Below are positions 27,876-51,406 of a stretch of 58,766 bases of DNA, piece by piece. This DNA comes from Bacteroidales bacterium. Its GTDB lineage: Bacteria; Bacteroidota; Bacteroidia; Bacteroidales; Muribaculaceae. Positions within the stretch are counted from its first letter, which is position 1. Each line of letters begins with the position of its first letter. Under the pieces are notes generated by a model. The model saw only the letters and a list, made by a program, of their open reading frames with translations, did no database searches and was not told the DNA's origin. Both the position numbers and the translations under genes were made by a program. The stretch is from positions 1-58,766 of the forward strand of contig JAUNPQ010000006.1 in the NCBI GenBank assembly GCA_030536615.1. Reading direction: 5' to 3'.

Positions 27876-27983
27876 ATGAAAGACAAATGCAAAATATACA
27901 TTGATTCCTATCCGCGCGGGGTTTATCTGTTGAGTGTGTCAATGGAGTCATCCTCATCAGAGACGGTTCGTTTCACTTTATAG
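27876..27983 (+). pseudogene. 35-codon frame resembling the end of a type IX secretion sorting tail
   Basis: ATG 27876 to TAG 27983 would encode 35 residues ending YPRGVYLLSVSMESSSSE and VRFTL. This resembles the last strands of C-terminal type IX secretion sorting domains (kGvYlv.v...g......KfvL pattern). It lies ten bases before the RHS start. It may be a leftover 3' end of a deleted surface-protein gene, a leader peptide, or chance. A promoter-like box within the upstream frame argues against an intact longer gene. Confidence 0.3.
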
Positions 27984-27993
27984 CTATGATAAT

Positions 27994-32207: not shown

Positions 32208-32215
32208 TAACTTTG
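32208..32215 (+). promoter_or_regulatory. Putative -7 box of the nuo-atp operon
   Basis: TAACTTTG fits TAnnTTTG, about 77 bases before the nuoA ATG. No TTTG at the usual -33 distance. It is the only such box recognised ahead of the long operon. Confidence 0.45.
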
Positions 32216-32291: not shown

Positions 32292-32672
32292 ATGATATCG
32301 TTAAGTATCTTCGGAATTACGAACAATGGTCTGTTGGCCGTTACGGCGGCGCTGACAGGTGCTGCATTGGTTTTTCTGGCGATGTGGATAGCCGGTCTGA
32401 TCAGCCCGCGCTCATTCAATCCGCAGAAAGAAGAGCCGTATGAATGCGGAATCCCTACCCGCGGCAAATCCATGTCCCAGTTCAGGGTGGGATATTATCT
32501 GTTCGCCATCTTATTCCTGATGTTTGATGTGGAGACAGTGTTCCTGTTCCCGTGGGCTGTCAAGATGCAGGCGCTCGGAGCACAGGGCCTTGTCAGCATC
32601 GCGATCTTTTTCGGAGTATTGGTCTTAGGTCTGGTCTACGCCTGGAAGAAAGGAGCTCTTGAATGGAAGTAA
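32292..32672 (+). CDS. nuoA: NADH-quinone oxidoreductase-type complex I subunit A
   Basis: A 126-residue membrane subunit with three helices and the conserved EEPYECG loop and FDVETVFLFPWA helix of NuoA. It sits at the junction of membrane and peripheral arms near the quinone site. It opens the operon and overlaps nuoB by 10 bases. Confidence 0.95.
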   Translation: MISLSIFGITNNGLLAVTAALTGAALVFLAMWIAGLISPRSFNPQKEEPYECGIPTRGKSMSQFRVGYYLFAILFLMFDVETVFLFPWAVKMQALGAQGLVSIAIFFGVLVLGLVYAWKKGALEWK

Positions 32673-33262
32673 CAACAAAATCAATGCCTTATGAGGCATT
32701 TAAGGATAACGAATATATAGAAGGTCTTGTAAAGGAACTTCAGGAATCGGGTACCAATGTGATTGTCGGCACATTTGACAAGCTAATTAACTGGGGCCGT
32801 TCCAACTCAATCTGGCCTTTGACATTTGCTACAAGTTGCTGTGGTATAGAGTTTGTGTCGCTTGGCGCAGCGCGTTTTGACATGGCCCGTTTTGGCTGGG
32901 AAGTTGCCCGTTCATCTCCCCGTCAGGCCGATTTCATGATGGTTGCCGGTACAATTGTGAACCGTATGGTTCCGGTGTTCCGTCGTCTGTATGATCAGCT
33001 CGCTGAGCCTAAATATGTTATAGCATGCGGTTCATGTGCCATTTCCGGCGGTCCGTTCCGCAAATCCTATCATGTGGCCAAGGGCATTGAAGATATAGTG
33101 CCGGTGGATGTTTTTGTTCCCGGCTGTCCTCCGCGTCCTGAAGCAATGATATACGGCATAATGCAACTATCGCGCAAAATAAAGGTCGAGAAATTCTTTG
33201 GAGGCGTCAACCGTCAGGAACGTCGCATAAAATTCTACGAGGAACACCCTGAATGCCAGTGA
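32663..33262 (+). CDS. nuoB: Complex I subunit B (N2 iron-sulphur subunit)
   Basis: A 199-residue peripheral-arm subunit. All four ligands of cluster N2 are present: adjacent C59-C60 in ATSCCGIEF, C125 within ACGSCAISGG, and C155 in PGCPPRPE. It passes electrons to quinone together with NuoD. The ATG lies inside nuoA. N-terminal residues 1-28 are a hydrophilic extension. Confidence 0.96.
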   Translation: MEVTTKSMPYEAFKDNEYIEGLVKELQESGTNVIVGTFDKLINWGRSNSIWPLTFATSCCGIEFVSLGAARFDMARFGWEVARSSPRQADFMMVAGTIVNRMVPVFRRLYDQLAEPKYVIACGSCAISGGPFRKSYHVAKGIEDIVPVDVFVPGCPPRPEAMIYGIMQLSRKIKVEKFFGGVNRQERRIKFYEEHPECQ

Positions 33263-33320
33263 TCAGGAAGGGCAACGACACTTCATATAATAACAAGCAT
33301 CAGCACAACAACTGAAAAAT

Positions 33321-34964
33321 ATGGCAAATCTGCTGAAAAAAATAGCAACGCAGTTCCCGGACGCCGTCATTGAGACGGATGCCGGCGGCAAAACCACCGT
33401 AAGCATCGCTGACCGCGACTGGAACGCATTGGCCCGCATGCTCCATGATGATCCCGACATGCCTCAGGATTTTCTGGTGACAATTGTGGGCATGGACTGG
33501 CCGGAAGGTCTGGGATGTGTATATGAGATGATGTCATCGGCTGACAGATCGGGCTCTGTCCTGGCAGTGAAAGTCATGTCTGTTGAACATGAAGGGAAAC
33601 CGATGATACACTCCGTTGCCGATGTCTGGGACATCGCCGTGTATTACGAGCGCGAAGTGTATGACTTTTTCGGCATCGTGTTCATAGGCAACCCCGATAT
33701 GCGCCGACTCTTCCTCAGCATAGACTGGAAAGGCTATCCTCTGCGCAAAGATTATGATGACAATCCGATATACAACCCCGTTTCCATTGAGAACGAGCGC
33801 CAGAGCGATGACACGGACATGTACGTGGAGGACAAGGACGGACGGATTGTAAAAACCACACGTCGCATATTTGAACCTGACGAGTTTGTGGTCAATATAG
33901 GTCCGCAGCATCCGGCCACACACGGTGTGCTGCGTTTCCGCACATCTGTTGACGGCGAGGAGATAAAGAAGATAGACGTGTATATGGGCTATATACACCG
34001 CGGCATAGAGAAACTCTGCGAAAACCTGACATATCCGCAGACGCTACACTTCATGGACCGTATGGACTATTTCTCCGCACATAACTACCATCACGCCCTG
34101 TGCATGCTCTATGAGAAAGCCGCCGGCATTGAGATCAGCCGCCGCGCACAGGTGATACGTGTCATGATGGACGAACTGAGCCGTATAGCCTCCCACTGCC
34201 TGTTCATAGGAACATACTGCATGGACCTCGGTGCTACGACAATGCTGTTCTATGCATTGCGCGTGCGTGAGCAGATCCTTGATATAATGGAGAAAACATG
34301 CGGAGCACGCATGACATTCAACTATGACTGCATAGGCGGCGTGATGCAGGATCTCGCGCCTGACTTCGTGGCCGACGTGCATGCTCTGCTTGATGTGCTT
34401 CCCAAAAACATCAAGGAATACAATAAGATATTCACCGGCAATGTGATTGCCCGCAACCGCCTTGAAGGCGTGGGCTATCTGAGCCTTGAGGATGCCAAGT
34501 CATGGGCCGTGTCAGGTCCTGCCGGACGCGCGTCGGGATGGGCATGCGACATGCGCAAATGGGCTCCATACAGCATCTATGACGAACTTGAATTTGACGA
34601 AGTGATAGCTCATGAGGGTGACTCCATGGCACGTTTCAAGGTGCGTATGCTTGAAATGGAACAAAGCGCGCGCATTCTGGCCCAGCTTGTTGACAACATA
34701 CCTGAGGGCGAGTACTGCGTAAAAGTGCCCAAAGTGCTTAAGCTCCCCAAAGGCTCATGGTTCCAGGTGACGGAAGGTTGCCGCGGTGCGTTCGGACTCT
34801 ATCTTGAAAGCGACGGAACCACCAAGCCTTACCGGCTCAAGATAGCGCCTCCATGTCTGCCATTGGCTGCCGTGGTTGATCATGTGACCCGTGGACAGAA
34901 AATCGCCGACCTTATAACAATCGGCGGCTCAATGGACTACATTGTGCCCGACATGGACCGTTGA
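33321..34964 (+). CDS. nuoC: Complex I fused subunit C/D
   Basis: A 547-residue fusion of NuoC (about residues 1-170; YEREVYDFFGIVF ... YPLRKDY) and NuoD (from about 185; FVVNIGPQHPATHGVLRFR). The HPATHG loop lines the quinone pocket. NuoCD fusion is seen in Bacteroidetes and enterobacteria. The NuoD part, like its relatives, descends from hydrogenase large subunits but lacks their Ni-binding Cys pairs, fitting complex I rather than a hydrogenase. Confidence 0.95.
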   Translation: MANLLKKIATQFPDAVIETDAGGKTTVSIADRDWNALARMLHDDPDMPQDFLVTIVGMDWPEGLGCVYEMMSSADRSGSVLAVKVMSVEHEGKPMIHSVADVWDIAVYYEREVYDFFGIVFIGNPDMRRLFLSIDWKGYPLRKDYDDNPIYNPVSIENERQSDDTDMYVEDKDGRIVKTTRRIFEPDEFVVNIGPQHPATHGVLRFRTSVDGEEIKKIDVYMGYIHRGIEKLCENLTYPQTLHFMDRMDYFSAHNYHHALCMLYEKAAGIEISRRAQVIRVMMDELSRIASHCLFIGTYCMDLGATTMLFYALRVREQILDIMEKTCGARMTFNYDCIGGVMQDLAPDFVADVHALLDVLPKNIKEYNKIFTGNVIARNRLEGVGYLSLEDAKSWAVSGPAGRASGWACDMRKWAPYSIYDELEFDEVIAHEGDSMARFKVRMLEMEQSARILAQLVDNIPEGEYCVKVPKVLKLPKGSWFQVTEGCRGAFGLYLESDGTTKPYRLKIAPPCLPLAAVVDHVTRGQKIADLITIGGSMDYIVPDMDR

Positions 34965-35061
34965 CAAAGAGAAGAGAGAATAAAATGGAAAAAGGCTGCG
35001 GACGGACAATTCATAACCACTGACAGCGACAAACAAATAAGACAACCGACAATCAATCATT

Positions 35062-36144
35062 ATGCAAGATTTCTCAGTCATCACCGATTGGATTCATAAT
35101 TTCCTGCTGAGCACCTGCGGACTTCCCGGGTGGCTGACGGTGACAATAGAATGCCTGCTTGTGGGTGTGGGACTACTGCTGGTATATGCTGTGCTGGCAC
35201 TGTTCTATATCCTTTATGAACGCAAAGTGTGCGCATGGTTTCAATGCCGTCTGGGCCCTAACCGTGTAGGCCCCTGGGGTCTGCTGCAGTCAGTGGCTGA
35301 CATGTTCAAGATACTCATCAAAGAGCTTATCCACCTCAAGAACATTGACCGTTTCCTGTTTGCGCTGGCTCCTTATCTGGTGCTTATCGCATCCATGCTC
35401 GCTTTCGGAGTGATGCCATGGGGCAACGGGCTGCAGGTCATAGACTTCAATATAGGCATCTTTTTCCTGCTGGCATGCTCTTCAATCGGAGTCCTCGGCA
35501 TACTTCTGGCCGGTTGGTCATCCAACAACAAATTCACCCTCATCGGCGCTATGCGTTCAGGCTCACAGATGGTCAGCTATGAGCTTTCAGTGGGCCTGTC
35601 TGTGCTCACCATGGTCTGCATGGCGCAGTCAATGTCAGTGGGTGATATCATTGCAAGTCAGGAACGTCTCTGGTTCATATTCTCAGGACATGTACCAGCA
35701 ATCATAGCTTTCATTGTGTTCCTGATTGCGGGAACAGCTGAAACAAACCGCGGCCCGTTTGACCTTCCCGAGGCTGAAAGCGAGCTGACAGCCGGGTACC
35801 ATACGGAATATTCAGGCATACACTTCGGCTTCTTCTACCTTGCCGAGTATCTGAACCTTTTCATCATATCAGGCGTTGCATCCCTGATGTTCCTTGGAGG
35901 CTGGATGCCGTTCCATATCCCCGGCTTTGACGGCTTCAACCACGTGATGGACTGCATTCCCGGCCTGATCTGGTTCCTGGTGAAATGTTTTGCTATAAGC
36001 TTCATCATCATCTGGTTCAAATGGACATTCCCGCGTCTGCGCATTGACCAGATGCTTAAACTGGAATGGAAGTACCTGCTTCCGATAAACCTGTTCAATC
36101 TGGTGCTGATGGCAGTAGTGATTGTTTCAGGCTGGACACTGTAA
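35062..36144 (+). CDS. nuoH: Complex I subunit H
   Basis: A 360-residue membrane subunit with about eight or nine helices. [25 protein letters not shown] and the acidic loop [21 protein letters not shown] are the quinone-channel signatures of NuoH. It is the last complex I gene before the ATP synthase block; only 50 bases without a hairpin or promoter box separate it from atpD. Confidence 0.95.
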
Positions 36145-36152
36145 AATATTAA

Positions 36153-37697
<1,545 letters not shown>

Positions 37698-37733
37698 TAG
37701 TTCCCATTATCATGCCATTAAACAGAAACGTCC

Positions 37734-37970
37734 ATGACACTGAAAATAATATCAACGACTGAGGTGGTTTTTGAAGGAACAGTCAGCGCCGTAATGCTGC
37801 CCGGCAGCATGGGGCGGTTCACTGTGCTTGAACACCATGCATCGTTGGTGTCCACACTCGCAGCCGGCAAGATCGTTTACCGGCTGCCGGACGGAACAGA
37901 AGATACCTATGCTGTTAATGGCGGCATTGCCGATATAGACAATAATGTTGTGTCAGTATGTATCTATTAA
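37734..37970 (+). CDS. atpC: ATP synthase F1 subunit epsilon (short form)
   Basis: A 78-residue protein containing only the beta-sandwich domain (VFEGTVSAVMLPGSMGRFTVLEHHASLVSTLAAGKI ... AVNGGIADI). The C-terminal two-helix domain that inhibits ATP hydrolysis in many bacteria is absent. Short epsilon subunits are common in Bacteroidetes, so this is not a truncation. ATP hydrolysis must be restrained by another means. Confidence 0.92.
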   Translation: MTLKIISTTEVVFEGTVSAVMLPGSMGRFTVLEHHASLVSTLAAGKIVYRLPDGTEDTYAVNGGIADIDNNVVSVCIY

Positions 37971-37983
37971 GCAGGGCATTGAA

Positions 37984-39159
37984 ATGAAGAAGATAGCACA
38001 TATAATTTTCACGGCGCTGATATTCATGGCTTTGTCGGTTCCGGTCCATGCCGAGTCAACTGTCCATGAGAAGACCGAGAATGAGGAGCATGCTCTTGAT
38101 CCGAAAGAGATCATATTTGAGCATCTCGGTGACGGCTATGGTTGGGAAGTGCCCTTCAATCATCACAAAAGAATTCCGTTGCCGGTGATTGTCAAGGTCA
38201 AGGACGGCGGATTCCACATCTTCATGTCAAGCCATCTTGACAATGGTGCCGAGTACACAACCGGCGGCTGCACTTTCCGTATTGCAGGCAAGAAAAGTCC
38301 CTACAAAGGGAAGGTGGTGCAGATTGTGGACGACAAGGAAGTGCCCACAACCATTGACATCAGCATAACCAAAAACGTTGCGGCGCTGTTGCTGAGCATA
38401 GTATTTGTCTCGTGGCTGCTGATATGGCTTGCACGTTTTCACAAACGCAACCCCAACAAGGCGCCCCGCAAAGGTCTTGGCTTCATAGAACTGCTTGTTG
38501 TCTTTATCTGGGACAGCGTGGTGAAGTCAACTTTAAAGGACAAAGCATACAAGTTCGCGCCATATCTGATGACAGTGTTCTTCTTCATCTTCGGCATGAA
38601 CTTGCTTGGACTTGTGGTGGTGTTTCCCGGAGGTGCCAATCTCACCGGCAACATTGCTGTCACACTTGTGCTTGCAGTGCTCACATTCCTGGTGACGAAT
38701 ATCTTCGGGACAAAACATTACTGGAAAGAGATATTCTGGCCCGATGTCCCCCTGTGGCTTAAGTTCCCTCTGCCCATCATGCCCCTGATTGAGATCTTCG
38801 GCATGTTCACCAAGCCGGCTGCTCTCACTGTGCGTCTGTTTGCAAACATGATGGGAGGACATATGATAGTGCTGGTACTCACACTGCTCATATTTATCTT
38901 CTCGGCCATAAACCCTGTTGCAGGAGGCGCCACCACCGTAGTATCAGTACTGTTCTCGGTATTCATGCTACTCATAGACGTCCTTGTGAGTTTCATTCAG
39001 GCATATGTGTTCACCATGTTGTCAACCATATTCATCTCACTGGCTCAGGAAAAGGAACACCATAAGGAAGAAGAGAAAGAGAAGAATGGTTCCACACCGG
39101 TATCATCGGCAGCGCCTGCCGTTCAGACAGTCGGCGCACAGAAAGTGAAATTGCACTGA
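37984..39159 (+). CDS. atpB: ATP synthase F0 subunit a with long N-terminal extension
   Basis: From ATG 37984, 391 residues: signal-like start (KKIAHIIFTALIFMALSVPVHA), a polar segment of about 110 residues, then the subunit a membrane domain with the essential Arg in ALTVRLFANMMGGHM. The C-terminus is hydrophilic and Glu/Lys-rich. E. coli subunit a has 271 residues; the extra N-terminal domain is known in Bacteroidetes and presumably faces the periplasm. The frame is open 13 codons earlier but would overlap atpC. No atpI-like gene separates atpC and atpB. Confidence 0.93.
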   Translation: MKKIAHIIFTALIFMALSVPVHAESTVHEKTENEEHALDPKEIIFEHLGDGYGWEVPFNHHKRIPLPVIVKVKDGGFHIFMSSHLDNGAEYTTGGCTFRIAGKKSPYKGKVVQIVDDKEVPTTIDISITKNVAALLLSIVFVSWLLIWLARFHKRNPNKAPRKGLGFIELLVVFIWDSVVKSTLKDKAYKFAPYLMTVFFFIFGMNLLGLVVVFPGGANLTGNIAVTLVLAVLTFLVTNIFGTKHYWKEIFWPDVPLWLKFPLPIMPLIEIFGMFTKPAALTVRLFANMMGGHMIVLVLTLLIFIFSAINPVAGGATTVVSVLFSVFMLLIDVLVSFIQAYVFTMLSTIFISLAQEKEHHKEEEKEKNGSTPVSSAAPAVQTVGAQKVKLH

Positions 39160-39218
39160 AAAGTATATGATATAGCTAACTGATAAGAAATATAAAAACA
39201 AATCATAAACCTCACTAA

Positions 39219-39470
<252 letters not shown>

Positions 39471-39483
39471 CTTATAACCGTCA

Positions 39484-39509
39484 GTCCCGTCATTACATAG
39501 TGACGGGAC
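39484..39509 (+). promoter_or_regulatory. Intercistronic stem-loop between atpE and atpF
   Basis: Perfect 9-bp stem GTCCCGTCA (39484-39492) / TGACGGGAC (39501-39509) with an 8-base loop and no U tract. Placed directly after atpE, it could protect the atpE 3' end or slow read-through, raising subunit c output over its neighbours. It is not a normal terminator because essential F0/F1 genes follow. Confidence 0.5.
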
Positions 39510-39531
39510 ACGGACAATAAAACAAAAAGCG

Positions 39532-40047
39532 ATGGATCTATTCAAAGCCGATTTCGGGCTGATGTTCTGGATGTTCGTGGGCTTCCTGATTCTCTTCCTC
39601 ATATTGTGGAAGTTTGCATGGCCCGTGATACTCAAGACCGTTGACAAACGCGCCGACCTCATAGACAAAGGCGTGGAATATGCCCAGAACGCCAAGATAC
39701 AGCTTGACAACGCGCAACAGCAGGCTGACCGCATGCTGCAGCAGACGCGTACCCAACAGGCCGAGATGCTTCGTGATGCGGATCGTATGAAGACTCAGAT
39801 CATTGAGGAGGCACGCGGCGCCGCGCAGAAAGAGGCCCAGAAAGTCATGGATGCGGCACGTCTGTCAATTGAACAGCAGCAGAAACAGGCCGAAAAGCAA
39901 TTTCGTGATCAGGTCAGCGATTTCGCTCTGAACATCGCCCGTAAAGTGGTCAGAAAGGAGATGGATGATCCCAAGGCTCAGTCGCAGTTGGTGAACACAT
40001 ATCTTGACGAGATTGAGAACAGCAACGACAAGAACGTAAAACAATAA
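39532..40047 (+). CDS. atpF: ATP synthase F0 subunit b
   Basis: A 171-residue peripheral-stalk subunit. One N-terminal membrane helix (GLMFWMFVGFLILFLILWKFAWPVI) is followed by a long charged coiled coil rich in Gln, Ala and Lys. It anchors F1 to F0 with subunit delta, whose gene follows after 15 bases. Confidence 0.94.
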   Translation: MDLFKADFGLMFWMFVGFLILFLILWKFAWPVILKTVDKRADLIDKGVEYAQNAKIQLDNAQQQADRMLQQTRTQQAEMLRDADRMKTQIIEEARGAAQKEAQKVMDAARLSIEQQQKQAEKQFRDQVSDFALNIARKVVRKEMDDPKAQSQLVNTYLDEIENSNDKNVKQ

Positions 40048-40062
40048 CAGCAGCGCAGCAAT

Positions 40063-40608
40063 ATGGATCAGGGACTTCTGCCACGGCGTTATGCAAAGGC
40101 ACTCTATAAGTTTGCCGTTGATGAGAACTGCACCAAGGACATATACCTGTTCATGCAGAACATTGACAACGCATACATGCACGCTCCGGGCCTTCAGACA
40201 ACGCTTGCCAACCCGTTTGTAAAACCTGCGGAAAAAATGACGCTTGTTGTCTCGGCTGCCGGTGATGCTGCGGCTTCAAGCAAGCCATTGGCGGATTTTG
40301 TCACACTTCTGATAAAAAACCGCCGTATAGGACTACTGCATGAAATTGCCTTGTCATATTGCCGGCTGTACCGCAAGGAGAACAACATCTACGGAGTGCA
40401 GATTGTATCTGCAATGCCATTGACAGAGCCTGATGAACAACGCCTCCGCAACCTTGTGGAGCGCCATCTTGGCGGTGCTTCCGCTGAATTTTCATTTGCT
40501 GTTGACCCCTCGTTGGTCGGCGGTTTCGTAGTAAACATTGAAAATGAACGTCTGGATGCGTCCGTTAAGAACGAACTTGAACAATTGCGATTGAACCTCA
40601 TAAAGTAA
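40063..40608 (+). CDS. atpH: ATP synthase F1 subunit delta
   Basis: A 181-residue subunit. RRYAKALYKFAVDEN at the N-terminus, LIKNRRIGLLHEI in the middle and VDPSLVGGFVVNIENERLDASVKNELEQL at the end match OSCP/delta. It links the peripheral stalk to the top of F1. Confidence 0.95.
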   Translation: MDQGLLPRRYAKALYKFAVDENCTKDIYLFMQNIDNAYMHAPGLQTTLANPFVKPAEKMTLVVSAAGDAAASSKPLADFVTLLIKNRRIGLLHEIALSYCRLYRKENNIYGVQIVSAMPLTEPDEQRLRNLVERHLGGASAEFSFAVDPSLVGGFVVNIENERLDASVKNELEQLRLNLIK

Positions 40609-40632
40609 ATTTCTCAAGCATAAAGACAAACA

Positions 40633-42210
40633 ATGATAAATCCCAGTGAGATTTCGGAAGTGCTCAAGCAGCAGCTTGAAAACGTCAACAGCCACGTTTC
40701 CTTTGAGGAAGTAGGCAAAGTCCTGGAAGTAGGCGATGGTGTGGCCCATGTATATGGTCTTGACAACGTCCGTGCCAATGAACTCGTGGAATTTGAGAAC
40801 GGAGTGAAAGGCGTTGCCCTCAATCTTGAGGAAAGCAACGTAGGTGTCATCCTGATGAACAACGTCAACAAGGTGACAGAGGGCATGAATGTGCGCCGCA
40901 CGGGTCAGATTGCATCCATTCCGGTGGGTGAAGGCCTGTTTGGCCGTGTCATCAATGTGCTCGGCGAGCCTATTGACGGCAAAGGACCCGTTGACGGAGA
41001 ACTTCTGGCAATGCCACTTGAGCGTAAAGCTCCCGGGGTTGTTTACCGTCAGCCCGTCACCCAGCCCTTGCAGACAGGTCTCAAGGCCGTGGACGCAATG
41101 GTGCCCATCGGCCGCGGACAGCGTGAACTTATTATCGGTGACCGTCAGATAGGCAAGACCGCCATCGCCATTGATACAATCATCAACCAGCGCCGTAATT
41201 TTGAGGAAGGGAAACCTGTTTACTGTATCTATGTGGCCATCGGCCAGAAAGCATCATCTGTTGCCGCACTGGTTGAGACACTTCGCCGTTACGGCGCTAT
41301 GGATTACACGGTGGTTGTCGCAGCGACAGCTTCTGATTCCGCTTCTATGCGCTACTATGCCCCCTTTGCAGGTGTGGCAATCGGCGAGTATATCCGCGAC
41401 ACCGGCCGCGATGCCCTGATTGTTTACGATGACCTCTCCAAACAGGCTGTGGCATACCGCGAAATATCACTGATTCTTAAACGCCCCTCAGGACGTGAGG
41501 CCTATCCGGGCGATATATTCTACCTCCATTCACGTCTGCTGGAACGTGCCGCCAAGATAATTGACAATCAGGAAATGGCTCAGAAGATGAATGACCTTCC
41601 CGAGGTTCTGCGTACACGCGTGCGTGGCGGCGGTTCCCTCACCGCGCTCCCCATCATTGAGACACAGGCCGGTGACGTATCGGCATATATCCCCACAAAC
41701 GTGATCTCAATCACTGACGGACAGATCTTCCTTGAGACAGCATTGTTCAACCGTGGTATACGCCCGGCCATCAATGTAGGTATCTCCGTTAGCCGTGTGG
41801 GCGGAAACGCGCAGATAAAATCAATGAAAAAAGTTGCCGGAACGCTCAAGATTGATCAGGCACAGTTCCGTGAGCTTGAGTCATTTACCAAATTCGGAGG
41901 TGACATGGATGCCGTGACCGCCCGCGTGATTGACAAAGGACGCAAGAACGAGCGTCTTCTCATACAGCCACAATACACACCTTGGCCTGTGGCTGAGCAA
42001 GTCGCAGTCATATATTGCGGTGTGAACGGACTGCTTGAAAACGTGCCTCTTGACAAAGTGGCCGAGTTTGAAAAGCAGTACATACAGTTGCTGCAGGCAC
42101 GCCACGCCGATGATGTCCTTGCAGTCATCGCACAAGGCAAACTGACTGATGACGTGACAGACAAAATGCGCAAAGCCGCCGCTGAGGTGGCAGACCGTTT
42201 CAAGGCATGA
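40633..42210 (+). CDS. atpA: ATP synthase F1 subunit alpha
   Basis: A 525-residue regulatory nucleotide-binding subunit. P-loop [13 protein letters not shown] starts at residue 169; [15 protein letters not shown] and [15 protein letters not shown] are conserved; the Arg finger segment is ISVSRVGG. Full length, with no signs of damage. Confidence 0.97.
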
Positions 42211-42267
42211 CACACATACCGGCAGACATATAAAAAAGAATAATTCAGGCAACAAGACAATCCAGAC

Positions 42268-43161
42268 ATGGCAACCCTCAGAGAACTAAAAGGACGAATC
42301 GGTTCAGTGGCGTCGTCGGAAAAAATTACCGGCGCCATGAAAATGATATCGTCGGCCAAGATGCACAAGGCCGAAAGTGCCCTGCACCGTCTTGTGCCTT
42401 TCCGCAGCCAGATAGAGACAATCATCGGCAATGTGCTGGGCAGTGACGCCACTTTCTCATCACCGCTGGTGTCTGAAAATGCCGAGGTGAAGCGCATGGC
42501 AGTGATTGTATGGGGCAGTGATGACGGCCTTTGTGGAGCATACAATGTGAACATCTGTAAAAGGCTGGTTGAATACCTCCGTGATTTGCGCGGTGCGCTG
42601 GGAGCAGCGGTGATTATAGATGTGATGCCTGTAGGCAAGAAAATAGCACGCATCGCAGACCATCTCAAAGAAAATGGTGTGAATGTGGTAGCGGCTCCTG
42701 ACGGTATTGATTCAAAAACGGATGGCACGGCTGTGAATGAATTTATGCAGACACTTGTCCGTGAATTTCTTGATGGCAGATACCAGCGCGTTGACACGTT
42801 GTATATGAAATTCTATAGCGCAGGCCGTCAGCGACCGGTTGCCTCACAGCTTCTGCCGGTGCTCCCGCAGACATTTGCTGAAGCCGGTGCCGGCAAAGCC
42901 ACCGGACGCCCTTATCTGTTTGAACCTGACCCAAACGCGATTTTCAACGCTGTACTGCCGCTATTCCTCATGGCAGTCATGCAGGACATATTCACAGAAA
43001 ACCGGGCTGCCGAGCAGGCAGCGCGTGTGATGGCGATGCAAAGCGCCAACGACAATGCCAAAAACCTTCTGGAGGACCTGCAGCTTGAATACAACAAACT
43101 CAGACAACAATCAATCACAAGTGAACTTCTTGACATTGTAGGCGGACAGGCAAGAGAGTAG
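42268..43161 (+). CDS. atpG: ATP synthase F1 subunit gamma
   Basis: A 297-residue central-shaft subunit. N-terminal helix ATLRELKGRIGSVASSEKITGAMKMISSAKM and C-terminal helix MAMQSANDNAKNLLEDLQLEYNKLRQQSITSELLDIVGG form the coiled-coil rotor. Last gene of the atp block; nuoI follows after 73 bases with no terminator or promoter box seen. Confidence 0.95.
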   Translation: MATLRELKGRIGSVASSEKITGAMKMISSAKMHKAESALHRLVPFRSQIETIIGNVLGSDATFSSPLVSENAEVKRMAVIVWGSDDGLCGAYNVNICKRLVEYLRDLRGALGAAVIIDVMPVGKKIARIADHLKENGVNVVAAPDGIDSKTDGTAVNEFMQTLVREFLDGRYQRVDTLYMKFYSAGRQRPVASQLLPVLPQTFAEAGAGKATGRPYLFEPDPNAIFNAVLPLFLMAVMQDIFTENRAAEQAARVMAMQSANDNAKNLLEDLQLEYNKLRQQSITSELLDIVGGQARE

Positions 43162-43234
43162 AGACCCACGCCTCCCACTGCAATCAATATAAAACCAATA
43201 AAGAACCAATCACCAAGCAACTCACATTTGTATA

Positions 43235-43933
43235 ATGAGTAGTGTAAAAGAATATTTCAGCTCACTCGGCAGCGGATTCAGCAGCCTTATAAAAGGACTG
43301 GCCGTCACCGGAAAAGAGTTTGTGACGCCCAAAATCACGGAGCGTTATCCGGAAAACCGTGAGACCCATGAGTGGGCCGACCGTTTCCGTGCATGTCTGG
43401 AACTTGTCTATGACAAGGACGGCAACCATAAATGTATAGCCTGCGGTACCTGCGAGCGTGTGTGCCCCAACGGAACAATCTCTCTTGAGACAAAAATGGT
43501 TGATACGCTCACCGGCAAAAAGAAGAAACTGGTCAAATACAGCTATGATCTGGGAAGCTGCACATTCTGCCAGCTGTGTGTGCAGAACTGTCCTACATCG
43601 GCTCTTGATTTCTCAAATGATTTTGAGCAGGCCGTATTCACACGCTCCAAATTGGTGAAACAGCTCAATTATCTGCCCGAAAAAGAAGAACCGGCGCCCA
43701 CTCCCGAGCAACTTGCTGCCGCCGCTGCCGAGCGCGAGGCTAAAATAGCCGCTGCCAAAGCCAAGGCTGCCGCCATGAAAGCCGCCAAAGAAGGCGCTGC
43801 CGCCAATGCTCCTGCCGCCGTAGCCAAGCCTGCTGCCACACCGGCAGCTCCCGCCATAGAGCCTGCGCAGACACAGGGCAATGACGCAACTCCTGCCGCC
43901 ACCAAGAATGACAATCCTGAAAATAAACAATAA
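43235..43933 (+). CDS. nuoI: Complex I subunit I (2x4Fe-4S) with Ala/Lys/Pro-rich C-terminal extension
   Basis: A 232-residue ferredoxin-like subunit. Two full 4Fe-4S motifs are present: CIACGTCERVCP and CTFCQLCVQNCP. The core ends near residue 155. The last about 75 residues are a low-complexity tail, first helical Ala/Lys/Glu-rich (AAAAAEREAKIAAAKAKAAA), then Pro/Ala-rich. Typical NuoI has about 160-180 residues. In complexes lacking NuoEFG this subunit is near the electron entry side, so the tail could help dock a donor; that is inference. Confidence 0.93.
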   Translation: MSSVKEYFSSLGSGFSSLIKGLAVTGKEFVTPKITERYPENRETHEWADRFRACLELVYDKDGNHKCIACGTCERVCPNGTISLETKMVDTLTGKKKKLVKYSYDLGSCTFCQLCVQNCPTSALDFSNDFEQAVFTRSKLVKQLNYLPEKEEPAPTPEQLAAAAAEREAKIAAAKAKAAAMKAAKEGAAANAPAAVAKPAATPAAPAIEPAQTQGNDATPAATKNDNPENKQ

Positions 43934-43939
43934 CGATAT

Positions 43940-44452
43940 ATGGACTCAGTTGGAAGTTTAATAATGTTTGCGATCCTGGCATTGTCTATGGTCGTATTCT
44001 CCGTGCTGGCCGTTACCACGCGTAAAATACTGCGTGCCGCCACATTCCTGCTGTTCACACTTTTTGCAACTGCGGGAGTCTATTTCAAACTTGATTACGA
44101 GTTTCTGGGAGCGGTGCAGATCGCTGTCTATGCCGGTGGTATAGTGGTGCTGTTTGTGTTCTCGATTCTCCTTACATCACATCCCGGCGATAACTCCGAA
44201 CGTCTGCACTCACGCCGGCGCACTCTCGGCCTTGTGGCTGCCATAGCCATGCTGGCCGTGGTGGGATGCTCCTTTATAGACCGCTGCGAACTGCTTGTGA
44301 AAGCTCCGGCGATGACGAACCCCGACATGGCTGTCATCGGAACAGAACTTGTTGATCCCGCCGCCGGACATTATCTGCTGCCATTCGAGGCCATCTCCGT
44401 GCTTCTGCTGGCATGCATAATTGGTGGTGTTGTTGTGGCCAGAAAACGTTAA
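43940..44452 (+). CDS. nuoJ: Complex I subunit J
   Basis: A 170-residue membrane subunit with five helices; RKILRAATFLLFTLFATAGVYFKLDYEFLGAVQIAVYAGGI is the conserved NuoJ helix 2-3 region. Starts 6 bases after nuoI, so translation is probably coupled. Confidence 0.94.
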   Translation: MDSVGSLIMFAILALSMVVFSVLAVTTRKILRAATFLLFTLFATAGVYFKLDYEFLGAVQIAVYAGGIVVLFVFSILLTSHPGDNSERLHSRRRTLGLVAAIAMLAVVGCSFIDRCELLVKAPAMTNPDMAVIGTELVDPAAGHYLLPFEAISVLLLACIIGGVVVARKR

Positions 44453-44464
44453 AACTCTGAAATT

Positions 44465-44806
44465 ATGGAATTTATATCAGACTTTCTGAACAATATAGAA
44501 ATCACGGCCCTGTGGTACCTCATTCCCAGTCTGCTGATGTTCTGCGCCGGCGTATATGGATTCATGACACGCAAAAACATGATTGCCATCCTCATTTCGC
44601 TGGAACTTATGCTCAATGCCGTTGATATCAACTTTGTGGTGTTCAACCGCTTCCTTTTCCCCGGACAGCTTGAGGGAATGTTCTTCACCCTCTTTGCCAT
44701 AGCGATTGCTGCCGCCGAGACAGCACTTGCCATAGCGATAATCATCAACATCTACCGGTCTGTCAAGAACGTTGATGTCACCACGCTTAACGAAATGAAA
44801 TTTTAA
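44465..44806 (+). CDS. nuoK: Complex I subunit K
   Basis: A 113-residue three-helix membrane subunit. Conserved membrane glutamates lie in ILISLELMLNAVDINFVVF and AAAETALAIAIIINIYR. They belong to the central proton-translocation axis. NuoK is usually about 100 residues, so the size is normal. Confidence 0.94.
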   Translation: MEFISDFLNNIEITALWYLIPSLLMFCAGVYGFMTRKNMIAILISLELMLNAVDINFVVFNRFLFPGQLEGMFFTLFAIAIAAAETALAIAIIINIYRSVKNVDVTTLNEMKF

Positions 44807-44812
44807 CGCGAA

Positions 44813-46783
44813 ATGGATATAACGACAACTTTGCCGGTATTGGCCCTGCTGATAATAGCCATACCGCTCTTCAACTTCCTGTGGCTCGGCATTGCCGGCT
44901 GCAAACTGCCCCACAAAGTGGCTGCCGCATTCGGTATACTTGGAATGGGCACATGCCTTGTGCTGGCCTGCACCATAGCCTATACGTACTTTTTCAGCGG
45001 CAACCCCGAGTTCCAGACGGTTCTTGCCGACGGCACAGTGGAGCGTCTGCACTACACCGTGTTCAACCAGACATGGCTCGCGTTCACAGACACACTGGTG
45101 ATAGATCTGGGTTTTTATCTTGACCCGATATCAGCCATGATGCTTGTGGTCATCACCACCATCTCATTTTGCGTCCATCTCTACTCATTGGGCTATATGG
45201 AAGGCGAGCGCGGATTTCAGCGTTACTATGCATTCCTGTCACTGTTCTCATTCTCGATGCTTGGCCTTGTGGTTGCCACCAACATCTTCCAGATGTATAT
45301 CTTCTGGGAACTTGTGGGTGCCTCATCCTACCTGCTCATCGGCTTCTACTACACAACGCCATCGGCAGTGTCGGCATCAAAGAAAGCATTTATAGTGACC
45401 CGTTTCGCCGATCTGGGTTTCCTGATCGGTATTCTGGTACTGTCATTCTACACAGACACCTTTGACTTTGCAACACTCACAGACAATCCGCAGGGAGCCC
45501 TGATGTCTACCGGAGGTGCCACCTTCATGGGCGCGTCAGTGCTCACATGGGCATTGGTGCTCATCTACATAGGAGGCATGGGTAAATCAGCCATGATGCC
45601 CCTGCACATATGGTTGCCGGATGCCATGGAAGGTCCTACCCCCGTGTCCGCGCTCATACACGCCGCAACCATGGTCGTTGCCGGTGTATTCCTCGTGGCA
45701 CGCATGTTCCCGCTATATATGCTTGAATATGCATCGACGGTGTTCATTGCCGTTGTAGGCGCAGCAACAGCGTTCTATGCCGCAGTGGTGGCCTGCACGC
45801 AGATAGATATAAAACGCGTTCTTGCATTCTCAACCATCTCACAGATCGCATTCATGATGGTGAGTCTGGGAGTGGCGTCGCTCGGACAAGGGGAAGTGTG
45901 CCACCACGGACTGGGATACATGGCCTCGATGTTCCACCTGTTCACACACGCCATGTTCAAGGCATTGCTGTTCCTGTGTGCCGGTGCGCTCATACATGCC
46001 GTGCATTCAAACAACTACACCGCCATGGGAGGCTTGCGCAAATATATGCCCATCACCCATATAACATTCCTTGTGGGCTGTCTGGCCATCGCCGGTATCC
46101 CGCCCTTCTCGGGATTCTTCTCAAAGGATGAGATCCTCTCGGCCGCTTACGCCTGGAGCCCCTGGATGGGAGTGTGGATGACAATTGTCGCCGCCCTGAC
46201 AGCATTCTACATGTTCCGCCTCTACTACATGATTTTCTGGTGGAACAAGCCCGACTATTCACATCACACGCCCCATGACGCACCCTGGAGCATGAGCACC
46301 CCGCTTGTATTCCTGGCACTGGTGTCATGCGTGGCCGGATTCATACCTTTCGGACATTTTGTGACATGGAACGGCTTGACCTATGACATACATCTTGACC
46401 CGACAATTGCCATCTCAAGCGTTGTCATAGCCATTCTGGCCATAGCTCTTGCAACAGTCATGTACCGCAAGGAGAACCCCCTGCCTGCACGTATGCGTGC
46501 TGCAATGCCATGCCTGTGGGAGTGGGCACATCACCGGTTCTATTTCGATGAACTCTACATGTTCGTCACACACAAGATCATATTCAACGGCATCTGCCGT
46601 CCCATAGCCTGGTTTGACCGTCACATCATTGACGGCACCATGGATGCTTTTGCCGCAATGACAAACAAAGCATCCTGGAGCATACGCGGCCTGCAGTCCG
46701 GACAGATCCAGATGTATGTGTGGATATACCTGATAGGCGTATTGATACTTGGAGCGGTTACAGCGGCCATAGTGCTGATATGA
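44813..46783 (+). CDS. nuoL: Complex I subunit L (antiporter-like)
   Basis: A 656-residue distal antiporter-like subunit with about 16 helices. MYIFWELVGASSYLLIGFYYT (key Glu), KSAMMPLHIWLPDAMEGPTPVSALIHAATMVVAG and the C-terminal lateral helix region are typical. It forms one of three proton channels with NuoM and NuoN. Confidence 0.95.
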   Translation: MDITTTLPVLALLIIAIPLFNFLWLGIAGCKLPHKVAAAFGILGMGTCLVLACTIAYTYFFSGNPEFQTVLADGTVERLHYTVFNQTWLAFTDTLVIDLGFYLDPISAMMLVVITTISFCVHLYSLGYMEGERGFQRYYAFLSLFSFSMLGLVVATNIFQMYIFWELVGASSYLLIGFYYTTPSAVSASKKAFIVTRFADLGFLIGILVLSFYTDTFDFATLTDNPQGALMSTGGATFMGASVLTWALVLIYIGGMGKSAMMPLHIWLPDAMEGPTPVSALIHAATMVVAGVFLVARMFPLYMLEYASTVFIAVVGAATAFYAAVVACTQIDIKRVLAFSTISQIAFMMVSLGVASLGQGEVCHHGLGYMASMFHLFTHAMFKALLFLCAGALIHAVHSNNYTAMGGLRKYMPITHITFLVGCLAIAGIPPFSGFFSKDEILSAAYAWSPWMGVWMTIVAALTAFYMFRLYYMIFWWNKPDYSHHTPHDAPWSMSTPLVFLALVSCVAGFIPFGHFVTWNGLTYDIHLDPTIAISSVVIAILAIALATVMYRKENPLPARMRAAMPCLWEWAHHRFYFDELYMFVTHKIIFNGICRPIAWFDRHIIDGTMDAFAAMTNKASWSIRGLQSGQIQMYVWIYLIGVLILGAVTAAIVLI

Positions 46784-46844
46784 TGCCCCGCAGAAACCAA
46801 TCATTAGACATAAATAATATTCTGACAGAAAAAACCAATCAACA

Positions 46845-48350
46845 ATGTTCAGCAATATACTGATATATTTTGTGGTGATACCCATAGTGATGCTCGGGTT
46901 GCTCGCCATATGTAAGAATATAAAGCAAATCCGCACAGTGGCTGTTGTGGGCAGCAGTGCGCTGATAGGGCTTTCAGTCTACCTTCTGGTGGGCTACCTG
47001 CAGCAGCGTGCCGCCGGCATAGACTCTCCCATGCTCTATGTGGACAGCTGGGAATGGTTCGCTCCGCTGCATATCCATCTGGCTGTGGGCGTTGACGGAG
47101 TGTCTGTGGCCATGCTCATGCTCTCAAGCATAATAGTGTTCGCAGGCTCATTCGCATCGTGGAAAATTGATCAGCCAAAGGCCTTTTTCCTGTGGCTGAT
47201 ACTGTTGTCCACAGGTGTGTTCGGCTTCTTCATCTCCATAGACCTGTTCACAATGTTCATGTTCTATGAAGTTGCGCTTATCCCCATGTACCTGTTGATA
47301 GGACTGTGGGGCACCGGACGCAAGGAATACTCGGCCATGAAACTCACACTGATGCTTATGGGCGGCTCGGCATTTCTGATGCTCGGACTTATCGGCATCT
47401 ACTACCACAGTGCCCCCGAGGGCGGTGAACTCACCTGGAACATCCTTGACATTGTTCGCAACGACTCCATAGCACATGGCTGGCAGAGCTTCCTTTTCCC
47501 GATGACATTTGTGGGCTTCGGAGTTCTGGGTGCCATGTTCCCCTTCCACACATGGAGCCCTGACGGTCACGCCTGCGCGCCTACCGCCGTGTCAATGCTC
47601 CATGCCGGTGTACTGATGAAGCTGGGAGGTTACGGATGTTTCCGCGTGGCAATCTACTGCATGCCCTGGGCTGCCAATGAACTTGCATGGATATTCCTCA
47701 TCCTTACAGGCATATCGGTTGTGTACGGTGCCTTCTCGGCATGCGTCCAGACAGACCTCAAGTACATCAACGCCTATTCATCGGTGAGCCACTGCGGCAT
47801 GGTGCTCTTCGCCATACTGATGCTCAACACAACAGCGATGACCGGTGCTGTTCTACAGATGCTTTCACACGGTCTGATGACAGCCCTGTTCTTTGCCCTC
47901 ATCGGTATGATATACGGACGCACGCATACCCGCGACATCCGTCAGATGGGCGGTTTGATGCGCATAATGCCATTCCTTGGAGTCTGCTACGTGATTGCCG
48001 GTATGGCATCGCTGGGACTGCCGGGCCTTTCAGGTTTTGTGTCAGAGATGACAATATTCGTGGGCTCATTTGAACACACCGACACATTCCACCGCGTGTT
48101 CACCATCCTGGCCTGCTCATCGATAGTGATCACCGCCGTTTATATTCTCCGCGTTGTGGGCAAACTCCTTTTCGGTGCGGTGCAGGACAAACATCACCTA
48201 CAGCTCACCGATGCCACATGGTGGGAGCGCCTTTCAACCGTGACACTCATAGTCTGCGTTGCGGCAATAGGATGCTTCCCCAACTTCTTTGCCGAACTGA
48301 TCAAATTCACCTTCTCGCCTGACATATTCGCGGCGATAGGTCTTCAATAA
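46845..48350 (+). CDS. nuoM: Complex I subunit M (antiporter-like)
   Basis: A 501-residue antiporter-like subunit with about 14 helices. FMFYEVALIPMYLLIGLWG carries the key Glu, and FPFHTWSPDGHACAPTAVSMLHAGVLMKLGGYG the helix 7-8 region with Lys/His of the proton path. Full length. Confidence 0.95.
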   Translation: MFSNILIYFVVIPIVMLGLLAICKNIKQIRTVAVVGSSALIGLSVYLLVGYLQQRAAGIDSPMLYVDSWEWFAPLHIHLAVGVDGVSVAMLMLSSIIVFAGSFASWKIDQPKAFFLWLILLSTGVFGFFISIDLFTMFMFYEVALIPMYLLIGLWGTGRKEYSAMKLTLMLMGGSAFLMLGLIGIYYHSAPEGGELTWNILDIVRNDSIAHGWQSFLFPMTFVGFGVLGAMFPFHTWSPDGHACAPTAVSMLHAGVLMKLGGYGCFRVAIYCMPWAANELAWIFLILTGISVVYGAFSACVQTDLKYINAYSSVSHCGMVLFAILMLNTTAMTGAVLQMLSHGLMTALFFALIGMIYGRTHTRDIRQMGGLMRIMPFLGVCYVIAGMASLGLPGLSGFVSEMTIFVGSFEHTDTFHRVFTILACSSIVITAVYILRVVGKLLFGAVQDKHHLQLTDATWWERLSTVTLIVCVAAIGCFPNFFAELIKFTFSPDIFAAIGLQ

Positions 48351-48374
48351 TTCTAACCAAGAAAGCAAACAGCA

Positions 48375-49853
48375 ATGGAATACTCTCAGTTTTTAGCCAT
48401 GAAGCAAGAAATAGGATTGCTTGTCCTTTTCTTGGTGGTATTCATCTATGATATTTTCATGCCCCGCAGTGCGGCAAAAGCGTTGCCGTGGGTGACAGCC
48501 GGGCTGATGACACTGGTCACGGTGGCCGGTTTCTTCCCGTGCCTGCTGGGCACCGCAGGTGCGGTGAGTGTTTTTGACGGCATGTACGTCAACTCGCCTA
48601 TTCTTGCCGCCATAAAGAACATACTCAACATCGGCGTTGTCATAGTATTGATACAATCTGTGAAATGGGCCAACAATGAGCTGATGGCCATGCGTCGCGG
48701 AGAGTTCTATGAACTTCTGCTGGTAACACTTTTCGGAATGTACCTGATGATAAGCGCCCGTCACTTCCTGGTGTTCATCATCGGTCTTGAGAGCGCATCA
48801 CTTCCACTTGCGGCAATGGTGGCTCTTGACAAAAACCGCTATGAAAGCCATGAGGCAGCTGTCAAATACATTCTCACCGCAGTGTTCTCATCGGCAGTGT
48901 TCATGATGGGACTTTCATTTGTGTACGGACTTAGCGGCTCGCTCTATTTCGGAAAAATATGTGAGGCTCTTGCAGGTCCGCAGTGCGCGCTGATGATAGT
49001 GTCACTCGCATTTGTGATTGCCGGCATAGGTTTCAAACTTTCACTTGTGCCCTTCCACCTCTGGACCGCTGATGTCTACCAGGGAGCACCCACCTCGGTG
49101 ACCTCCTACCTGTCAGTCATCTCCAAAGGCGCTGCAGCCTTTGCCTTCATGGTCATTCTGGCTCAGGCTTTCGGATGCCTCTATGAGGACGTGTGGGAGT
49201 GGATGCTCTACGCAATAATCATCCTCACCATCACCGTCGGCAACCTTTTCGCCATACGTCAGCGCAACATGAAGCGCTTTCTGGCATTCTCCTCAATCTC
49301 CCAGGCCGGCTATATAATGCTTGGTGTCATCGCCGCCAACGTGATGGGCACAACCGCCATGATGTACTACATTCTGGTTTACATCTTCAGCAACCTTGCC
49401 GCTTTCGGGGTGGCCGGCGCTGTGGAGAACCAGTGCGGCAAGATCTCTATTGATGACTACCGCGGCATGTCACGCTCAAACCCGCGTCTGGCATTCTGCA
49501 TGATGCTTGCCATGTTCTCACTGGCAGGCATTCCGCCCTTTGCCGGATTTTTCAGCAAATTCTTTATTTTCACAGCCGCGATCAACCAAGATTCGATTGC
49601 CATATATGTGCTTGTGCTCATTGCCCTCATAAACACAATCATCTCATTGTTCTATTATCTGCTGGTGGTTAAGAGCATGTACATCACACCCGGAGAACCG
49701 GTTGTGGGCCGATTCAAATCATCAGCCGGCGAGCGCATAGGTCTCATAATCACCGTGGCCGGAATTCTTCTGCTTGGTGTTGTCAGTCCCGTCTACAACT
49801 GGCTTGAGAACATAGCCTCATCATCTGAATTCCTCAGCTTGTTCGCACGCTGA
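48375..49853 (+). CDS. nuoN: Complex I subunit N (antiporter-like)
   Basis: A 492-residue antiporter-like subunit. FKLSLVPFHLWTADVYQGAPTSVTSYLSVISKGAA and FSLAGIPPFAGFFSKFFIFTAA are NuoN hallmarks. Last gene of the nuo-atp operon; a strong terminator follows after 28 bases. Confidence 0.95.
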   Translation: MEYSQFLAMKQEIGLLVLFLVVFIYDIFMPRSAAKALPWVTAGLMTLVTVAGFFPCLLGTAGAVSVFDGMYVNSPILAAIKNILNIGVVIVLIQSVKWANNELMAMRRGEFYELLLVTLFGMYLMISARHFLVFIIGLESASLPLAAMVALDKNRYESHEAAVKYILTAVFSSAVFMMGLSFVYGLSGSLYFGKICEALAGPQCALMIVSLAFVIAGIGFKLSLVPFHLWTADVYQGAPTSVTSYLSVISKGAAAFAFMVILAQAFGCLYEDVWEWMLYAIIILTITVGNLFAIRQRNMKRFLAFSSISQAGYIMLGVIAANVMGTTAMMYYILVYIFSNLAAFGVAGAVENQCGKISIDDYRGMSRSNPRLAFCMMLAMFSLAGIPPFAGFFSKFFIFTAAINQDSIAIYVLVLIALINTIISLFYYLLVVKSMYITPGEPVVGRFKSSAGERIGLIITVAGILLLGVVSPVYNWLENIASSSEFLSLFAR

Positions 49854-49881: not shown

Positions 49882-49912
49882 CACGCATCGTGAAAAGATG
49901 CGTGTTTTTTTT
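49882..49912 (+). terminator. Intrinsic terminator of the nuo-atp operon
   Basis: CACGCATC (49882-49889) pairs with GATGCGTG (49897-49904) over a 7-base loop, followed by eight T residues. This is the only strong intrinsic terminator seen between nuoA and this point. Confidence 0.9.
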
Positions 49913-50142: not shown

Positions 50143-51342
50143 ATGAAAAAGTCATTACTCATAGCAGGTGCCGGTGTATTAAGCCTTTTCGCCGCCCAGC
50201 CCGCCAGCGCACAGGAGACAGTCGTTGTCGAGGAAGAAAGTGTCGTAGTCACAGAGAACGTACCCTGTCAGACACATTATTATAGTACAGCCCGCGACAA
50301 CTGGTTCATCCAGATAGGTGCCGGCGTCAACGCTCCTTTCTGCGAGAATTTCCTGGCAAGCGACAAACAGAAACATCACCTGACTGTTGCCTACAATCTT
50401 GGCTTCGGTAAATGGATGAGCCCCTATCTTGGCTGGCGTATCAGCTTCCTTGGCGGCCCGCTCCACTGGGATTTCCGCAAGTTTGACAAGGCCAAATATG
50501 TCAGCGCCAATTTTGACCTGATGTGGGACATGTTCAACTCATACAGAGTCAACTCACGCCGCGTGTTCTCAATCGTACCTTTCGTAGGTCTTGGCGGAAC
50601 ATTTGTATGGGACTACAAAGGAGAGCCCGGAAACATCCTCAACAAACATCACAAAGTTAAGAGCAACCAGTGGTGTCTGCCCGTCAGCGTAGGTCTGCAG
50701 CTCCGCTTCCGTCTCTGCAAATATGTTGACTTCTTTGCAGAAGGCCGCGCCCAGTTCTATGGCGACAACTTTAACAACTATGCGTCAGGACAGCCCATTG
50801 AAGCCAATATCACCGCAATAGGCGGCTTCACCTTCAACATCGGCGGCAGTGACTTCCAGTCATATAACCCCTGTGACTATCTTGGCTACATCAACAGCCT
50901 CAACAATCAGGTCAACGACCTCCGCGGCGAACTCGCTACCACAGCCGCTGCACTTGCCGCCGCAGAAGCACAGCTTCCGTGCCCCGAGGTGGTTGTTGCC
51001 GAGGAGACTGTCACAACGCCCCTGCTGGCTACCGTCCGCTTCAAGATCAACAGCGATGTCATCCAGGACTACGAGAAAGTGAACGTCTACAACATCGCCG
51101 AGTGGCTCAAAGCCAATCCCACCCAGAATGTCACTATCGCCGGCTATGCTGACAAAGATACCGGTACCGCCGAGTACAACATGGCGCTCTCAAAACGCCG
51201 CGCCGAGGCTGTCCGCAGCGCACTTGTCAACGACTATGGCATCAATCCTGACCGTCTCTCCATCCAGGCCGAAGGCTCAGCAACCCAGCCCTATCCCGCC
51301 AACAATGACTGGAACCGCATAGTGATCTTCTCAAACAAGTAA
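50143..51342 (+). CDS. OmpA-family outer-membrane protein
   Basis: A 399-residue protein: signal peptide (KKSLLIAGAGVLSLFAAQPASA), an N-terminal beta-barrel with aromatic-girdle strands (about residues 45-250), a short coiled coil (SLNNQVNDLRGELATTAAALAAAEAQ) and a C-terminal OmpA domain (about 290-399) that binds peptidoglycan (FKINSDVI ... IAGYADKDTGTAEYNMALSKRRAEAV ... IQAEGSA). It is likely an abundant structural protein linking outer membrane and cell wall. The 289-bp upstream region is A/C-rich with no clear TAnnTTTG box. Monocistronic. Confidence 0.92.
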   Translation: MKKSLLIAGAGVLSLFAAQPASAQETVVVEEESVVVTENVPCQTHYYSTARDNWFIQIGAGVNAPFCENFLASDKQKHHLTVAYNLGFGKWMSPYLGWRISFLGGPLHWDFRKFDKAKYVSANFDLMWDMFNSYRVNSRRVFSIVPFVGLGGTFVWDYKGEPGNILNKHHKVKSNQWCLPVSVGLQLRFRLCKYVDFFAEGRAQFYGDNFNNYASGQPIEANITAIGGFTFNIGGSDFQSYNPCDYLGYINSLNNQVNDLRGELATTAAALAAAEAQLPCPEVVVAEETVTTPLLATVRFKINSDVIQDYEKVNVYNIAEWLKANPTQNVTIAGYADKDTGTAEYNMALSKRRAEAVRSALVNDYGINPDRLSIQAEGSATQPYPANNDWNRIVIFSNK

Positions 51343-51370
51343 ACAGTACATAATAATCAGAATACAGCGC

Positions 51371-51406
51371 GCAGGCGCCCCGCCGTTTCCAGGTCGGGGC
51401 GCCTGC
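51371..51406 (+). terminator. Strong GC-rich hairpin after the OmpA-family gene
   Basis: Perfect 12-bp stem GCAGGCGCCCCG (51371-51382) / CGGGGCGCCTGC (51395-51406) with a 12-base loop, 28 bases after the stop codon. There is no T tract, so it may stabilise the mRNA 3' end or terminate in a non-canonical way. Confidence 0.55.

Follow-up and report, generated by a model that had tools for sequence, protein, structure and literature searches.

An F-type ATP synthase operon nested within the complex I operon of Muribaculaceae and related Bacteroidales families

We examined a stretch of 58,766 nucleotides from a Bacteroidales bacterium of the family Muribaculaceae (GenBank assembly GCA_030536615.1, contig JAUNPQ010000006.1; the whole stretch is hereafter called the window), in which the genes for the F1Fo ATP synthase (atp) lie within those for complex I (nuo). 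The run consists of 18 open reading frames (ORFs) between positions 32292 and 49853, in the order nuoA-B-CD-H, atpD-C-B-E-F-H-A-G, nuoI-J-K-L-M-N. All of them lie on the plus strand and each has a nuo or atp identity in NCBIfam scans, which agrees with the names, order and single strand given in an earlier reading of the same DNA (the original prediction). That prediction called for a comparison of nuoH-nuoI neighbourhoods across Bacteroidales, and this comparison found the nested order in the whole family sample, as far as its genomes are informative, and in six further family-level groups. We consider it probable that the order arose by a single insertion in a shared ancestor, that the two operons have been inherited jointly, and that they form one 18-gene transcription unit today.

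Gene content of the nuo-atp locus

The upstream part of the locus begins with nuoA (32292..32672), which matches NuoA models (best 2.5e-28, under the model cut-offs), and nuoB (32663..33262; NF011391, 1.7e-105), which overlaps nuoA by 10 bp. These are followed by a nuoCD fusion (33321..34964), matching both NuoD and NuoC models, and by nuoH (35062..36144), identified in the NCBIfam scan and in a family-wide nuoH search. After a first junction (36145..36194), the ATP synthase block runs from atpD (beta, 36195..37697; TIGR01039, 4.6e-231) through atpC (epsilon, 37734..37970; 78 amino acids (aa), PF02823), atpB (a subunit, 37945..39159, with an alternative in-frame ATG 39 bp further downstream), atpE (c subunit, 39231..39470), atpF (b, 39532..40047), atpH (delta, 40063..40608) and atpA (alpha, 40633..42210; TIGR00962, 2.1e-226) to atpG (gamma, 42268..43161), the last also found by a family-wide atpG search. 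All eight bacterial subunits are present in this block according to the NCBIfam scans. A second junction (43162..43234) leads to nuoI (43235..43933), which encodes a 4Fe-4S dicluster protein, and then to nuoJ (43940..44452), nuoK (44465..44806), nuoL (44813..46783), nuoM (46845..48350) and nuoN (48375..49853), all with NCBIfam matches. The two junctions measure 50 bp and 73 bp, the same values as originally predicted.

Two of the encoded proteins deserve mention. AtpC consists of the beta-sandwich domain alone, without the C-terminal helical domain, and NuoI, of 232 aa in the window, ends in an Ala/Lys/Pro-rich tail. Ala/Lys/Glu/Pro-rich C-terminal tails are also found in other Muribaculaceae NuoI proteins (loci L036, L043, L055, L062 and L068), and the NuoI length in the family has a median of 209 aa over 41 loci (range 88-295, the shortest perhaps a wrongly cut ORF). 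In the other nested families, the eight NuoI proteins compared lack the tail and measure 148-162 aa. Upstream of the run, a 1129-aa ORF (27934-31323) contains DUF6443 and an RHS repeat. Downstream of nuoN, the region 50143-57110 contains a gene for an OmpA-like protein and, after it, genes for a TonB-dependent receptor and a SusD family protein.

We take the S24-7 group, or 'Ca. Homeothermaceae', to be the same family as the Muribaculaceae. The nested arrangement has been known for this family since 2016, when Ormerod et al. described, in the available part of their paper, an F-type ATP synthase integrated within the S24-7 complex I locus, with 11 of the 14 canonical complex I subunits and without NuoEFG (PMC4936053). 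The window has the same constitution, with F-type ATP synthase genes inside the locus of a complex I that lacks NuoEFG. The section 8 passages from that paper do not give the gene order, the junctions, the evolution or the wider distribution of the locus (PMC4936053). Among the matches listed for open-licence PMC articles, we met the nested order nowhere else, nor its spread to six further family-level groups, a single origin or a junction analysis. The present work adds these last three points.

Distribution and history of the nested order

A search with NuoI in 41 genomes placed atpG directly 5' of nuoI in 23 of the 24 nuoI loci of the window's genus, its own locus included; at the remaining locus the contig starts within nuoI. 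We also sampled 59 genomes from 30 genera of the family, of which 58 have nuoH, 57 have atpG and 56 have both. When the nuoH and atpG coordinates were paired by eye, the two genes were about 7 kb apart on the same contig and strand in 53 of these 56 genomes, and in the other three the locus is broken where contigs end, the fragments being consistent with nesting. Both junctions were seen in G045, on two contigs, while G087 and G095 have nuoH-atpD plus a separate atp piece, each running into a contig end. In G078, a stretch from atpD to atpG precedes nuoI to nuoL, and in G084 and G086 the contig stops just past nuoH. Among 44 named loci, 38 have atpG next to nuoI, and 31 of these also show nuoH-atpD; one further locus (L076) is cut. 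The other five have contiguous nuo genes: L071-L074, from two uncultured Bacteroidales, Candidatus Cryptobacteroides avicola and a Tannerella sp., and L077, from Alkalihalobacillus macyae. In this last locus, the atp genes stop 1.5 kb upstream of the contiguous nuo operon, adjacent to it and not nested.

The original prediction had named an assembly artefact as an outcome that would undo it, and the window does come from a draft assembly of 114 contigs. However, the same order recurs in many independent assemblies, among them a genome in three contigs (G096), and on contigs as long as 1.7 Mb (L043) and at least 1.3 Mb (G049). We therefore reject an assembly or binning error as the source of the nested order and regard it as next to inconceivable.

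Outside the family, we sampled 149 genomes of the order and took nuoH matches with E values up to 1.4e-100, which gave 64 loci in 54 genomes; weaker matches, many of them possibly hydrogenase relatives, were left out. Eight of the 64 loci are nested, and they belong to six family-level groups (f22 and f28 twice each, f60, f68, f88 and f109). Two loci are uninformative, and in 54 of the 62 others nuoI directly follows nuoH. In Bacteroides fragilis, the nuo genes are given ten consecutive tags (BF638R_0850-0841) in the available part of PMC7002350, which implies that no atp genes lie inside, unlike in the window. These observations bear out the expectation that in the better-known Bacteroidetes nuo is contiguous and atp lies elsewhere. 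At the level of the phylum, a sample of 99 genomes, in which the window was the sole member of its order, contained strong nuoH matches (E up to 1e-90) in 89 genomes and atpG in all 99, and a comparison by eye of the two coordinate lists revealed no nested spacing besides that of the window. The only genome with nuoH and atpG close together, G250, has nuoI directly after nuoH. Its atp genes (L225, L226) lie upstream of the nuoH-nuoI pair on one strand, with about 8.4 kb between nuoH and atpG, and tblastn finds no further nuo gene between atp and this pair or just past nuoI.

The atp operon itself also occurs on its own. From the 128 genomes having atpG, we selected 40 atp loci outside the nested clade; nine are free-standing complete atpDCBEFHAG operons, and most of the other 31 are atpBEFHAG without atpDC directly upstream. 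This agrees with the figures in the available part of PMC5709465, where epsilon-beta is split from the other atp genes in 87.8% of Bacteroidetes and a complete unit is found in Bacteroides and Prevotella. The order of this minor unit, beta-epsilon-a-c-b-delta-alpha-gamma, is identical to that of the nested block, and the main text of that source contains no occurrence of 'nuo', so that a nested position within genes of this name is not part of its account (PMC5709465).

We then compared the trees of the two operons. In trees of NuoB, NuoCD, NuoH, NuoL and NuoM, all 19 nested rows form one clade, with a support of 99 in the SH-like approximate likelihood ratio test (SH-aLRT) in the 63-row tree and 99/98 in a 33-row tree. 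The 63-row tree excludes 13 loci that are of the 14-subunit type or uninformative (L078, L141), three that are too short (L094, L103, L126), 33 of the 44 named loci and nine family loci (L142-L150). The named rows nearest to the window are L062 and L045 (Muribaculaceae) and L043 (Duncaniella), which fits its membership of the Muribaculaceae. The Atp proteins of the same nested rows also form one clade (83/70), and the two trees agree on the families, with f88 branching first, followed by (f60,(f68,f28)) beside ((f109,f22), Muribaculaceae). Some family branches are weak in the Nuo tree (66/42, 80/69), and the Muribaculaceae rows partly differ between the Nuo and Atp trees. A tree of rpoB from 29 genomes, without f88 since G168 gave no rpoB match, does not reject one nested clade (p = 0.49 in the approximately unbiased (AU) test).

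Since the Nuo proteins join all the nested rows in a single clade, the simplest history is that a ready-made atp operon was inserted once, and the tree disfavours independent repeated insertions. According to this reading, a complete atpDCBEFHAG operon would have been inserted once, co-directionally with transcription, between nuoH and nuoI of an operon already of the NuoEFG-less type. The insertion would lie in an ancestor that the Muribaculaceae share with at least six more family-level groups of the order, and the nuo-atp block would have been inherited together ever since.

Three observations speak against so simple a history. The best rpoB tree places G191, a genome without nuo and with a long branch, among the nested genomes, and the nested rows are held as one side in just 32% of the rpoB bootstrap trees. 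In addition, the nested atp clade (83/70) stands beside the atp operon of G186 (f106; L155, L107), a genome with contiguous nuo and a free-standing complete atpDCBEFHAG 11 kb away on the opposite strand. No other atp operon in the tree is closer to the nested atp (100/100), but the Nuo proteins reject a grouping of G186 with the nested clade (AU test, p = 0.0014; this grouping was picked for the test after the first Atp tree had been seen). Hence, one of the two operons, nuo or atp, was likely transferred around the time of the insertion.

Junctions and the transcription unit

The -7 box of Bacteroidetes promoters has the consensus TAnnTTTG, which differs from the consensus of sigma70-type promoters. 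In the window, two candidate boxes lie upstream of nuoA, between it and the previous ORF (TAACTTTG, 32208..32215, plus strand, and TATATTTG, 32109), with no -33 element at the standard spacing in the 30 bp upstream of either. There is no TAnnTTTG box in either junction, nor in the 250 bp before atpD or nuoI, and neither junction folds (-0.3 and -0.4 kcal/mol) or contains a hairpin; the original prediction had likewise seen no terminator or box at the junctions. The strong terminator expected after nuoN was recovered as a hairpin with T run at 49882..49912 (plus strand; 16 pairs including the T run, -23.1 kcal/mol); the terminator pattern scan gives its stem (49882-49904) on the minus strand only.

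We extended the analysis to 50 nested sequences, namely the window, 38 named loci and 11 loci out of the samples. The gap has a median of 53 bp at nuoH-atpD (21-128, n=43) and of 43 bp at atpG-nuoI (6-114, n=47), and these values resemble those of internal gaps such as nuoCD-nuoH (median 44) and atpB-atpE (median 50). A TAnnTTTG box with a -33 element was found in 0 of 43 nuoH-atpD and 0 of 47 atpG-nuoI junctions and upstream of nuoA in two of seven loci, nuoA being counted in only seven because the gene-start script missed some genes. Terminators were absent after nuoH (0/43), after atpG (0/48) and after each of eight other genes tested; the end of nuoN (9/39 loci, 0.0 expected) was the only positive among the 11 gene ends. 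The short gaps and the absence of a conserved box or terminator at the junctions favour one 18-gene transcription unit, which we regard as likely; transcription would start at a promoter ahead of nuoA and stop at the terminator that follows nuoN.

The alternative is that the blocks are transcribed separately. The atp genes would then have kept a promoter of their own, within the 3' end of nuoH or the junction, and another would serve nuoI-N or some later portion of it, so that their expression would be untied. Long operons commonly hold internal promoters, and several counts weigh against a single unit in this respect. A TAnnTTTG box on its own is present in 2 of 43 nuoH-atpD junctions (0.4 expected) and 1 of 47 atpG-nuoI junctions (0.7 expected), and the 250 bp before the gene start contain a box at nuoM in 10 of 47 loci (4.2 expected; one with a -33 element, 0.5 expected) and at nuoL in 6 of 42 (3.9 expected). 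The window itself has two boxes within the run, at 40107 in atpH and 41196 in atpA, and a sigma70-like site of 11/12 ahead of atpB, at 37979; the region as a whole has 34 sigma70-like sites vs 24.1 in shuffles and 18 terminator-like sites vs 16.9. The controls are also weak, since a terminator was detected after nuoN in no more than 9 of 39 loci and the nuoA counts come from just seven. However, boxes in the 250 bp before atpD (3/45 vs 5.0 in shuffles) and nuoI (1/49 vs 1.9) do not exceed the shuffles and none has a -33 element, and the window has no box at these two places, whereas a box stands upstream of nuoA in four of seven loci (0.9 expected). Separate transcription of the blocks thus seems unlikely to us, while the excess of boxes before nuoM means that an internal start near the 3' end is possible in some species. 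The equivalent region of the window (46595-46844) has no box.

Headless complex I and its ATP synthase

The complex I of the window is encoded by ten nuo genes (A, B, CD, H, I, J, K, L, M and N), with the quinone module and the membrane arm kept, and the operon contains no gene for NuoE, NuoF or NuoG. The NuoF domain PF10589, the only one of these three subunits searched genome-wide, had no match in this 93.9%-complete genome and matched in 7 of 14 controls. By its gene content, this is a 'headless' complex I of the 11-subunit type, without the NADH module. The same type is described, in the available parts of the sources, for the NUO of B. fragilis (PMC7002350) and for the NDH-I of Prevotella bryantii and P. 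copri, which also have NQR and for which the passages do not describe the genes around nuo (PMC6560451). NqrF, the one Nqr subunit that we searched for, was found in the genome of the window.

The positions that we compared in the c ring 1yce are presumably its Na+ ligands. At these positions, the c subunit of the nested block has Ile for Gln, Gly-Val for the two residues after the ion Glu, and Phe for Tyr. With these ligand positions not conserved, the nested ATP synthase may use H+ rather than Na+. PF00006 matched nothing in the genome besides atpA, atpD and Rho, which leaves the nested F-ATPase as the only rotary ATP synthase found there; the third match (G000:C12), considered as a second rotary ATPase, turned out to be Rho.

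The original prediction spoke of a proton pump and a proton-driven synthase tied in their expression. We find this pairing plausible. The pump, however, has no NADH module, and the available part of PMC7002350 reports that the headless NUO of B. fragilis has no NADH:quinone oxidoreductase activity and draws it with an unknown donor. With one transcript, the only rotary ATP synthase found in the genome would be produced jointly with the complex I expected to supply its protons. The natural reading would be a proton circuit encoded in a single message, alongside a Na+ circuit run by NQR.

Any selective benefit of such coupling would be a separate matter. Gene order within operons is generally stable, and a harmless single insertion could have been retained because its breakup would cut the operon, the coupling having no selective value; this reading is compatible with co-transcription and is favoured by the single origin and the joint inheritance seen in the Nuo and Atp trees. 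That the order is kept in every informative genome of the family fits selection and mere stability alike, and we give such a neutral accident an even chance. A more specific role would be that of a Na+/H+ converter instead of a redox pump, by which the headless complex I turns the Na+ gradient of NQR into an H+ gradient for an H+-type ATP synthase, and joint expression of nuo and atp would then be useful. Na+/H+ exchange by headless complex I was raised as a possibility in P. bryantii in the available part of PMC6560451. The absence of the NuoF domain, the presence of NqrF and a c subunit without residues aligned to the Na+ ligands are consistent with this role, while the retention of the 4Fe-4S protein NuoI and of NuoB and NuoCD in the quinone module argues for a redox function, and we hold a converter to be improbable. 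Equally improbable is a reading in which the insertion placed the sole ATP synthase under the nuo promoter, so that headless complex I would have to be made at ATP synthase-like levels, and in which the two complexes form a dedicated proton circuit beside the NQR Na+ circuit, perhaps with Na+ to H+ conversion and perhaps with co-assembly from one polycistronic message.

As a rare genomic change, the nested order could mark a clade of families. The contiguous nuo genes of B. fragilis are poorly expressed in anaerobic rich medium, according to the available part of PMC7002350, and the insertion may have changed the use of complex I in the Muribaculaceae. If the 18 genes form one transcript, these gut bacteria would make no ATP synthase without also making headless complex I.

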